From assembly GCA_016196035.1 (NCBI GenBank), contig JACPYM010000008.1, forward strand, positions 1-64,000: a stretch of 64,000 bases of DNA. Direction: 5' to 3'. The notes beneath the pieces are model-generated. The model had not been told where the DNA came from, searched no databases, and worked only from the letters and a program-made list of their open reading frames with translations. The stretch is from Acidobacteriota bacterium (GTDB lineage Bacteria > Acidobacteriota > Blastocatellia > RBC074). A program made the position numbers and the translations under genes. This document shows, in pieces, positions 58,761 through 61,090 of the stretch. The first letter of the stretch is position 1; every line of letters starts with the position of its first letter.

Positions 58761-59780
58761 TCAATTCGACTCGCTTTTACGCAAAGTAACGTAAGGTTGC
58801 AGTTCGCGCATCATCGTCGTGAATTCTTCGAAGCGCAGTGATTGCGGGCCGTCCGACCAGGCTTCTTCGGGTTTTGGATGCACTTCGGTCATCAAGCCGT
58901 CAGCGCCGACGGCGACGGCGGCCTTGGCCAGCGGGCGCACCAAGCTGCGCTTGCCCGTGCCGTGACTGGGGTCAACGATGATGGGCAGGTGGCTCAACTC
59001 ATTGATCACCGGCACGGCCGCCAGGTCTAGGGTGTTGCGCGTGGCCGTCTCGAAGGTGCGAATGCCACGTTCGCATAGAATCACATCGGGATTGCCGTGC
59101 GCGACAATGTATTCCGCCGAGAGCAGGAATTCGCGGATCGTTGCCGATAGTCCGCGTTTCAACATCACCGGTTTGCCAATCGTGCCCAGCTTTTTCAACA
59201 AGGCGAAGTTCTGCATGTTACGCGCCCCGATTTGCAGGATGTCGGCGTATTCGGCCACCAATTCGACATCGTCGCTGTCCAACACTTCAGTGATCACGCG
59301 CAAGCCGGTCTTTTCGCGCGCTTCCGCCAGCAGCTTCAGCCCTTCTTCAGCCAGGCCCTGAAATTCATAAGGCGAGGTGCGCGGTTTATAGGCGCCGCCG
59401 CGCAGCAGGTTCGCGCCTTGTTTAGCGACGTGTTCGGCTGTGCTTAAGAGTTGTTCGCGCCCTTCGACCGAACAGGGGCCAGCCATCACTACAAAGCCGC
59501 CATCGCCGATGCTGACATCGCCCACGCGAATCACTGTTTTCTGTTTTTTGACCTCTTTGCTGACTAGCTTAAACGGTTGCAGGATGGGAAAAGCATCTTC
59601 CACACCGTCCGCCGACTTGATGTGTTCGATGTGTTCTTTCTTGTCACCGGGGCCGACGGCGGCGATGACGGTGCGCTCGGTGCCTTTGATAACGTGCGGG
59701 GCGTAGCCGAAGCCGCGGATGCGGTCACAGATGTGATTGATCTGGTCTTCGGATGCTCCGGGTTGCATTGCTACGATCAT
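58761..59780 (-). CDS. aroF: 3-deoxy-7-phosphoheptulonate (DAHP) synthase, AroF type with N-terminal regulatory domain
   Basis: A 339-residue type I-beta DAHP synthase, the first enzyme of the shikimate pathway (phosphoenolpyruvate plus erythrose 4-phosphate). An N-terminal ferredoxin-like domain (about residues 1-70) is joined to the barrel, which has [40 protein letters not shown] and the metal site in I-V-D-P-S-H-G-T-G. The N-terminal extension is the feedback-regulatory domain in Thermotoga-type enzymes. AGGAG precedes the ATG at 59780. It lies 63 nt after pheA, and both appear to be controlled by the Phe/Tyr attenuator upstream. Confidence 0.95.
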
Positions 59781-59843: not shown

Positions 59844-60695
59844 TCAGCTTTCCGGCAACGCCGCGTGCTGATAACAGCCCAGCACTTTGATGTGATGGGC
59901 GAATTCGGCCAGATGCGCCAGCGCGTGCTGGACGCGCGCCTCAGCCAGATTGCCGGTGAAATCTACATAAAAACTATATTCCCAAGGGTGACCGCCAAGT
60001 GGGCGCGATTCGATCTTCGACAGGTCAATGTCGCGCAAAGCGAACACTGCCATCGCGCGAAAGAGCGCGCCCGTTTCGTTCTTCAGCGTAAAGACAATCG
60101 AAGTTTTGTCAGCAGCGGCAGGCGAGTCGCCCGCTTCGTCAGCGCGCGTGAGCAGCAGGAAGCGGGTGAAGTTCTGGCGGTCGTCTTCGATCCCGCGCAG
60201 CAGAATTTCCGCGTTGTAAACTTCGGCGGCGGCGGCGCTGGCAATTGCGGCGGCGCCCGTCTCGCGGCTTTGCATAATCAGTTTGACGCTGCCCGCCGTG
60301 TCATACGCCGCGACTGCCTTCAGCGTGGGGTGCGTCGCAAAGAAGCGCTGGCATTGCCCCAGGGCGACCGGGTGCGAATAGACCTTTTCAATTGCTTCGA
60401 GTTGCGTGCCCGGCGCGGCAATCAGGTTGTGGACGATGCGCAGATTGACTTCGCCCACCACGCGCAACTGGTCGTGTTGCAGCAACAGGTCGTAATTCTG
60501 ATGAACCGCGCCATACAACGAATTCTCAATTGGGGCGAGGCAATAGCGGCACGCGCCGTTTTCGACGGCGGCGAACATCTGTTCAAACGTCTCGCAGGGC
60601 AGCAATTCGATGGCCTCGCCCAACAGTTTGCGCGCGGCTTCGCTACTGAAGGCGCCAGCTTCGCCTTGATAGGCCACGGTTTGATTTGGGTTCAT
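59844..60695 (-). CDS. pheA: Prephenate dehydratase with ACT domain
   Basis: A 283-residue monofunctional prephenate dehydratase, making phenylpyruvate for phenylalanine synthesis. The catalytic domain (about residues 5-185) has A-Y-Q-G-E-A-G-A-F-S near the start, L-A-P-I-E-N-S-L-Y-G-A-V and the N-F-T-R-F-L motif with the essential Thr. The C-terminal ACT domain has N-E-T-G-A-L-F-R-A-M and K-I-E-S-R-P, the GALV/ESRP regions that bind phenylalanine for feedback inhibition. AGAGGA selects the ATG at 60695. A leader peptide and terminator precede the gene, and a long inverted repeat sits between that terminator and the start codon. Confidence 0.96.
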   Translation of the reverse strand: MNPNQTVAYQGEAGAFSSEAARKLLGEAIELLPCETFEQMFAAVENGACRYCLAPIENSLYGAVHQNYDLLLQHDQLRVVGEVNLRIVHNLIAAPGTQLEAIEKVYSHPVALGQCQRFFATHPTLKAVAAYDTAGSVKLIMQSRETGAAAIASAAAAEVYNAEILLRGIEDDRQNFTRFLLLTRADEAGDSPAAADKTSIVFTLKNETGALFRAMAVFALRDIDLSKIESRPLGGHPWEYSFYVDFTGNLAEARVQHALAHLAEFAHHIKVLGCYQHAALPES

Positions 60696-60720: not shown

Positions 60721-60818
60721 CGGGACGGTACCGCGCGCGTAGGCAAGCGGCGCGTCAACTCCGGCGCATTGTCTCAACGGCACCGTCTCCGCTTGTCCAG
60801 GCGCGCGGTGCCGTCCTG
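60721..60818. repeat. Inverted repeat, family B copy 2, inside the pheA leader
   Basis: 60721-60750 and 60789-60818 are complementary over most of 30 positions. The left arm shares GGTACCGCGCGCGT and GCAAGCGGCGC with the element at 26624-26804. It lies between the attenuator terminator and the pheA ribosome-binding site, so it is transcribed only when termination is relieved. Confidence 0.75.
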
Positions 60819-60822
60819 TTAT

Positions 60823-60870
60823 AAAAACCGAACGGCCCTTCTCTCGTTTGGAGAGAAGGGCCGTTCGGTT
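60823..60870 (-). terminator. Attenuator terminator upstream of pheA
   Basis: A perfect 20-bp stem (60826-60845 with 60851-60870), a 5-nt loop and, on the minus strand, a T-run (GGTTTTTATAAC). It begins 22 nt after the stop codon of the Phe/Tyr-rich leader peptide. Its 5' arm segment CGGCCCTTCT (plus coordinates 60854-60863) can instead pair with AGAAGGGTCG of the leader (60910-60919), 10 bp with one G-U, which would form an antiterminator. Confidence 0.9.
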
Positions 60871-60892
60871 GATCTCGCTTTTGCGTCAGGCG

Positions 60893-61030
60893 TTAGATGA
60901 GCGAGCCTCCGACCCTTCTGTCGTTGCTAAAGTAAAAATAGAAGCTAAACGCGAAGGAGGAGCGCGCAGACCAGGACCACAACGCGGCACGCTTGCTCAG
61001 CTTTCGATTTGTGGTCAGCCTGGAATTCAT
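60893..61030 (-). CDS. Phe/Tyr-rich leader peptide of the pheA-aroF operon (PheL-like)
   Basis: A 45-codon frame starting at ATG 61030, 25 nt or so after the predicted transcription start. Residues 26-34 are F-A-F-S-F-Y-F-Y-F (five Phe, two Tyr in nine codons), and W18 and W20 precede them. The stop at 60893 lies 22 nt before the terminator stem. A first RNA stem, CCAGG-x3-ACCACAA region with TTGTGGTCCTGG (61009-61023 with 60971-60982), spans codons 3-20. The 2:3 antiterminator segment starts 9 nt after the last Phe codon. The arrangement is that of amino-acid attenuation: stalling at Phe/Tyr codons frees region 2 to block the terminator. The weak point is the absence of a clear Shine-Dalgarno site. 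Confidence 0.8.
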   Translation of the reverse strand: MNSRLTTNRKLSKRAALWSWSARSSFAFSFYFYFSNDRRVGGSLI

Positions 61031-61061
61031 ACTGTTTGGTGAAAGTATCAAGACGCAGCGC

Positions 61062-61090
61062 ATTATGCGGATGGCTTCAGAAGCTGTCAA
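61062..61090 (-). promoter_or_regulatory. Sigma70 promoter of the pheA-aroF operon
   Basis: On the minus strand TTGACA (61085-61090) and CATAAT (61062-61067) are separated by exactly 17 nt. The -35 box is perfect and the -10 box is 5/6. The transcript would start near 61055, just ahead of the leader peptide. Confidence 0.88.

Follow-up and report, generated by a model that had tools for sequence, protein, structure and literature searches.

The pheA-aroF operon of a soil acidobacterium (genome of 9.6 Mb in 139 contigs) is predicted with high confidence to be controlled by a ribosome-mediated transcription attenuator that reads the supply of charged tRNA-Phe and tRNA-Tyr. The switch lies on the minus strand of the analysed window, a DNA stretch of 64,000 nucleotides. 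As far as can be judged from sequence, it has every core feature of this kind of control: a short leader ORF enriched in codons for the end products of the pathway, an intrinsic terminator separating the leader from the first structural gene, an antiterminator that overlaps the 5' arm of the terminator, excludes it and is supported by covariation, a computed geometry in which a stalled ribosome frees the antiterminator and a ribosome at the stop codon masks it, and a position upstream of matching-pathway genes that is kept in relatives. Since the same switch recurs in related genomes with matching base changes, the leader can be regarded as a real member of the classic kind and is very probably functional. 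It appears to extend classic ribosome-mediated attenuation to a bacterial group in which it has hardly been described before.

Organization of the pheA-aroF leader

A DUF218/SanA-like gene is followed on the minus strand by the promoter, the leader ORF, the terminator, pheA, and aroF. The features are as follows (coordinates in the window).

61842-61147, minus: DUF218/SanA-like gene, upstream of the promoter
61062..61090, minus: sigma-70-type promoter TTGACA-N17-CATAAT (TTGACA 61090-61085, CATAAT 61067-61062; 11 of 12 matches)
60893..61030, minus: leader peptide ORF of 45 aa, MNSRLTTNRKLSKRAALWSWSARSSFAFSFYFYFSNDRRVGGSLI, beginning at the first ATG after the expected transcription start; aromatic leader kept in relatives
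60971..60979, minus: W-S-W codons (codons 18-20; W18, W20); the motif as a whole is not conserved (13 of 38 leaders contain Trp)
60929..60955, minus: control codons F-A-F-S-F-Y-F-Y-F (codons 26-34, F26 to F34); Phe in 38 and Tyr in 35 of 38 tallied leaders
60910..60919, minus: antiterminator outer stem, 5' arm, located within the leader ORF; pairs with 60854-60863, species-matched in permutation tests
60900..60905, minus: antiterminator inner stem, 5' arm, just ahead of the stop codon; CTCGCT, pairs with AGCGAG at 60874-60879
60874..60879, minus: antiterminator inner stem, 3' arm, AGCGAG
60854..60863, minus: antiterminator outer stem, 3' arm, which is also part of the terminator 5' arm; pairing includes one G-U
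60826..60870, minus: intrinsic terminator hairpin, perfect 20-bp stem (arms 60870-60851 and 60845-60826) with a 5-nt loop
60823..60827, minus: U-run of the terminator (T-run in the DNA), read from sequence
59844..60695, minus: pheA, first regulated gene, prephenate dehydratase with an ACT domain (NF008865, 2.4e-75; PF00800, 1.3e-61; the ACT match scores below the Pfam gathering score)
58761..59780, minus: aroF, second regulated gene, DAHP synthase with an N-terminal ferredoxin-like domain (TIGR01361, 3.3e-124; PF18152, 6.7e-20)

All elements of the sequence-only reading were located on the minus strand, exactly or within a few bases of where it had placed them. These included the promoter, the 45-codon leader in which the run F-A-F-S-F-Y-F-Y-F is followed by a stop codon, and the 20-bp terminator, whose arms are perfect over 60870-60826 and whose T's extend to 60823. 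Promoter sites as good as this one are expected 0.3 times by chance in a 700-nt region. The motif TTGAC(A/T/G)-N17/18-(G/C/A)ATAAT also precedes the leader in most relatives of the same family (f1) and of its sister family (f2), with a mean promoter score of 9.95 versus 8.04 in shuffles (20 loci). The leader starts with an ATG at 61030 without a clear Shine-Dalgarno sequence before it, and its peptide ends with LWSWSARSSFAFSFYFYFSNDRRVGGSLI, followed by a TAA stop at 60895-60893.

The combination of an aromatic ORF and a terminator is not a chance property of this region. Among 2000 dinucleotide shuffles of the 405-nt upstream region, at least six aromatic residues within 10 codons appeared twice and a terminator-like hairpin scoring at least 14 appeared twice, while the two occurred jointly in none; the real hairpin scores 23.6. 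The 64-kb window contains no other ORF of up to 70 codons, on either strand, with at least six aromatics in 10 codons, whether or not accompanied by a terminator. Folding of the transcript gave z = -5.9 relative to shuffles. A promoter/terminator scanner did not call the 60870-60826 hairpin, apparently because two of the T's were counted in the stem.

Conservation of the leader and species-matched pairing

Phe/Tyr-rich leaders with a hairpin precede pheA in 10 of 10 f1 genomes and 7 of 7 f2 genomes with pheA sequence. A third family (f3) contributed 18 leaders, with the terminator found automatically in 15 and a hairpin recognized by eye just downstream in the other 3. One leader came from family f6, and two further MAGs also carry leaders. 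Examples are LAWSACFEFGFYFYFYFSRSRGVGSSLA (L006), GAWRYFYFSFFSIARGAGNAMV (L013), RFYYFAFTYRFFLGRAAAGKLVGVTG (L018), and FTFGFFWFYFGKTAEGEALCIKD (L145), each ending at a stop codon. In the 38 leaders tallied from these four families of the class and the two MAGs, Phe was present in 38, Tyr in 35, and Trp in 13. Phe and Tyr make up 16.2% and 6.3% of leader residues, versus 4.6% and 3.5% in the PheA of the window. Conservation of the leader codons was one of the two points on which the sequence-only reading had staked its proposal of ribosome-mediated Phe/Tyr attenuation, and the Phe and Tyr tallies support that proposal. Some f3 genomes and the f4 genomes yielded no leader in the scan.

The W-S-W codons noted ahead of the aromatic run are present (W18 and W20) but do not form a conserved sensor, and Trp was ruled out as a third conserved signal because it occurs in just 13 of the 38 leaders. 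An accessory Trp input through these codons is possible.

Operon layouts vary among relatives (pheA-aroF, CM-PDT, or an inserted PfpI-like gene), and the leader nevertheless occupies the operon start. In the f3 loci that were read, it precedes a chorismate mutase gene or domain, then the prephenate dehydratase part, with DAHP synthase, tyrA, or aroC next. In L012 and L039, the attenuator and pheA are separated by a DJ-1/PfpI-like gene, which would come under aromatic control; in L012, the leader and terminator stay at the operon start despite the insertion. L149, the only genome of the same genus, keeps the hairpin but has a weak U-run (GGCATTTCAGG); its terminator may work poorly, or the contig sequence may be faulty.

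In families f5 and f7 (L022, L025, L027, L030), short ORFs rich in Phe and Tyr, e.g., ending FTEFRFSPF and a stop codon, are located about 60-150 nt before a DAHP synthase-PDT fusion gene. Some of them have a small hairpin (GCCCG..CGGGC) over or beside the leader stop codon, and no U-run terminator was found at these ORFs. They possibly represent a different output mode.

For the alternative structure, the segment folded in each leader ran from the final aromatic codons through the terminator 5' arm, and most loci gave a single two-tier hairpin. The 10-bp pairing of 60910-60919 with 60854-60863, proposed from the sequence alone, exists with one G-U but is incomplete: an inner stem around the stop codon adds a second tier. 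Most relatives fold an analogous inner stem; it is CTCGCT/AGCGAG in the window and GCGATG/CATCGC in L013. The outer-tier leader arm is AGAAGGGTCG in the window, GAGGGG in other f1 genomes, AGGAGCGGG in f2, and CGGCT in one f3 group, and the matching terminator 5' arms are CGGCCCTTCT, CCCCTC, CCCGCTCCT, and AGCCG, respectively. Between f1 and f2, the outer arms are offset by one codon and differ in sequence, each fitting its own terminator.

Species matching was evaluated by joining the leader half of one species to the terminator half of another and folding the product; such permutations model phylogeny only in part. True partners folded at -11.15 versus -8.93 kcal/mol for permuted ones in a set of 20 loci (P = 0.0009), and the effect was weaker (P = 0.03) when permutation was confined within f1 and f2. 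The difference was larger in 15 f3 loci (-14.45 versus -8.94 kcal/mol; 0 of 50,000 permutations). For all 35 loci, the values were -12.56 and -7.87 kcal/mol (0 of 100,000 permutations), and permuting only within subgroups likewise gave 0 of 50,000. A plain two-strand duplex swap of leader arm versus terminator arm was not significant (P = 0.08) and did not discriminate because the GC-rich arms pair promiscuously, whereas folding of joined halves including the inner stem did.

These data bear on two simpler explanations. The terminator, strong by itself with its 20 bp, could merely end background transcription or set a fixed partial readthrough, with the leader ORF translated by chance and sensing nothing. 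Against this, the aromatic codons and reading frame are kept across families despite differing operon layouts, and the leader arms co-vary with the terminator arms, which makes such a passive arrangement quite improbable. Trans-acting leader peptides such as peTrpL exist (PMC7298713), and the ORF could likewise encode a functional small protein whose own gene ends at the hairpin. This seems very improbable, since conservation is limited to the aromatic run and the hairpin-forming part, the N-terminal halves differ widely and lengths range from 21 to 52 aa in the 38 leaders, and a free-standing small gene has no need of arms that pair with the terminator. The peptide may still have a role in trans alongside attenuation.

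Predicted switching mechanism and comparison with known systems

Ribosome masking was computed for the leader of the window, assuming a 13-nt downstream footprint. With the A-site at any of the control codons F26-F34, the antiterminator retains -26.4 to -24.7 kcal/mol, and 55-67% of the terminator-arm bases are paired upstream. Folding with and without a stalled ribosome, suggested as a check in the sequence-only reading, gave -24.7 kcal/mol for the A-site at the last Phe codon (F34) and -5.1 kcal/mol for the A-site at the stop codon, where the antiterminator is masked and 21% of terminator-arm bases are paired upstream. Before the 3' arm of the terminator is made, the antiterminator dominates in folding. 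Even without a ribosome, it still forms in the partial transcript (P about 0.59); a dedicated 1:2 protector is thus not apparent. Folding of the full-length transcript does pair leader bases with the antiterminator arm.

In the attenuation model, RNA polymerase would start about 25 nt before the leader ATG with a ribosome trailing behind. If both Phe and Tyr were plentiful, the ribosome would reach the stop codon within the antiterminator loop and cover the 5' arm of that hairpin; the terminator could then form, and the leader transcript would end near 60823 with a length of roughly 230 nt. If Phe or Tyr were short, the ribosome would be expected to stall within codons 26-34, with 12 nt between the start of the last codon and the antiterminator 5' arm. 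The two-tier antiterminator could then form first, with its outer stem capturing the terminator 5' arm, and transcription would probably be read into pheA and aroF. A single leader would apparently respond to two end products and would govern the Phe branch through pheA as well as the shared entry step of the pathway through DAHP synthase.

Alternative hairpins by themselves would also suit a T-box, a riboswitch, or an RNA-binding protein, any of which could choose between the two structures in place of a translating ribosome. Searches of Rfam with the window and nine sampled loci gave no relevant match at gathering or relaxed thresholds, and the covariance models of the Leu/phe leader (RF01743) and the T-box had no match above the gathering threshold. 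Moreover, what relatives retain ahead of the hairpins is an open frame containing Phe and Tyr codons. A sensor other than the translating ribosome is therefore extremely improbable.

The Escherichia coli pheA leader (pheL) is an attenuator with a short Phe-rich leader, overlapping terminator and antiterminator hairpins, and the ribosome as the sensor. The acidobacterial leader resembles it in all three respects, including its location before pheA. Unlike pheL, it mixes Phe and Tyr codons, shares its operon with the DAHP synthase gene, and has a two-tier antiterminator that encloses the leader stop codon without a clear 1:2 protector. The 1:2 protector hairpin belongs to the classic trp model and is not present in all attenuators; in contrast to that model, the antiterminator here can form without a ribosome (about 0.59), and no strong protector is seen. 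Enterobacterial pheA leaders use Phe codons, and enterobacterial aroF-tyrA is under TyrR. A mixed Phe/Tyr leader over pheA-aroF is thus not the textbook enterobacterial layout, and the sequence-only reading was not accurate in calling attenuation of prephenate dehydratase plus DAHP synthase by mixed Phe/Tyr codons a well-known enterobacterial feature.

Other phyla have candidate cis-regulatory RNAs whose names point to Phe or pheA, namely, the Leu/phe leader of Lactococcus lactis (RF01743), whose model had no match here, and the Actinobacteria pheA motif (Weinberg et al. 2010, PMC2864571); the latter has no Rfam accession in the table of that paper and is likened by name only. Beyond Proteobacteria, leader-peptide attenuators are published for trp, ilv, and leu genes in Actinobacteria (PMC1262725) and for his operons in Firmicutes (PMC9413887); they share the mechanism and the comparative reasoning but concern other amino acids, operons, and phyla. 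In a genome-wide survey from 2010, predicted attenuators in Acidobacteria were almost all without an assigned function (PMC2965389). The sequence-only reading knew of no description for this type of organism, and none for Acidobacteriota was found in the open-access literature, the coverage of which is limited, so an earlier prediction is possible.

A co-varying, conserved Phe/Tyr attenuator would give the large soil phylum Acidobacteriota a defined amino acid sensor and an RNA family that could join Rfam, and would make a classic, testable question accessible in a phylum where hardly any attenuators are annotated. It would also be indirect evidence that ribosomes trail RNA polymerase closely enough for attenuation in these bacteria.

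Occurrence outside the class and other loci of the genome

Most other classes of the phylum gave no aromatic leader in the scan, which reached operon starts up to about 2 kb upstream: 67 loci outside the class (189 kb) contained two matches, both of them a Phe/Tyr leader with a terminator upstream of pheA. In these 67 loci and in about 3-6 kb around pheA in 80 named genomes, a strong leader with a terminator was found only beside aromatic-pathway genes. Isolated members of other acidobacterial lineages (L053, L060, L212, L217) have a Phe/Tyr leader with a terminator upstream of pheA. The patchy distribution outside the class appears to reflect sporadic gain, loss, or transfer.

Two Anaerolineae (Chloroflexi) genomes contain the Phe/Tyr leaders RFYFAYYFYGLRSSVAVGDA (L073, 3400-3600) and RWFAYFYFYGFRNSVAVGGA (L099, 900-1150), each ending at a stop codon and accompanied by a terminator. 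Both are located downstream of pheA, directly before genes for an aroH-type chorismate mutase and DAHP synthase, and apparently represent an attenuator in another phylum.

We tentatively propose, as a possibility that goes well beyond the operon studied, a class-wide family of multi-input aromatic attenuators in Acidobacteriota. They would respond to Phe and Tyr, with Trp in about a third, and would have a two-tier antiterminator enclosing the stop codon and no true 1:2 protector, so that without translation the leader would tend toward readthrough; in Anaerolineae (Chloroflexota), a switch of analogous design would operate over aroH-aroF. If this is true, the family and the Anaerolineae switch would constitute a widespread, largely undescribed mode of aromatic control, requiring close timing of transcription and translation in Acidobacteriota and Chloroflexota.

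In the genome carrying the window, no comparable leader with a terminator was found upstream of trpE, hisG, two leuA-type genes, or other genes of the DAHP synthase family. On contig C33 (L151, L156), trpE and a second chorismate mutase-DAHP synthase pair are 10 kb apart, and no leader is visible; a dedicated DAHP synthase under separate regulation may therefore serve the Trp branch.

A palindromic element of about 96 nt (60721-60816, minus strand), folding at -62 kcal/mol, lies between the terminator and pheA. Neither the same-genus genome (L149) nor other relatives have it in their pheA leaders. Across its own genome, it has at least 72 matches including half-matches and at least about 40 near-full-length copies, with 40 of 371 candidates scored. 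The element appears to be a REP/MITE-like insertion that would be present only in the read-through mRNA.
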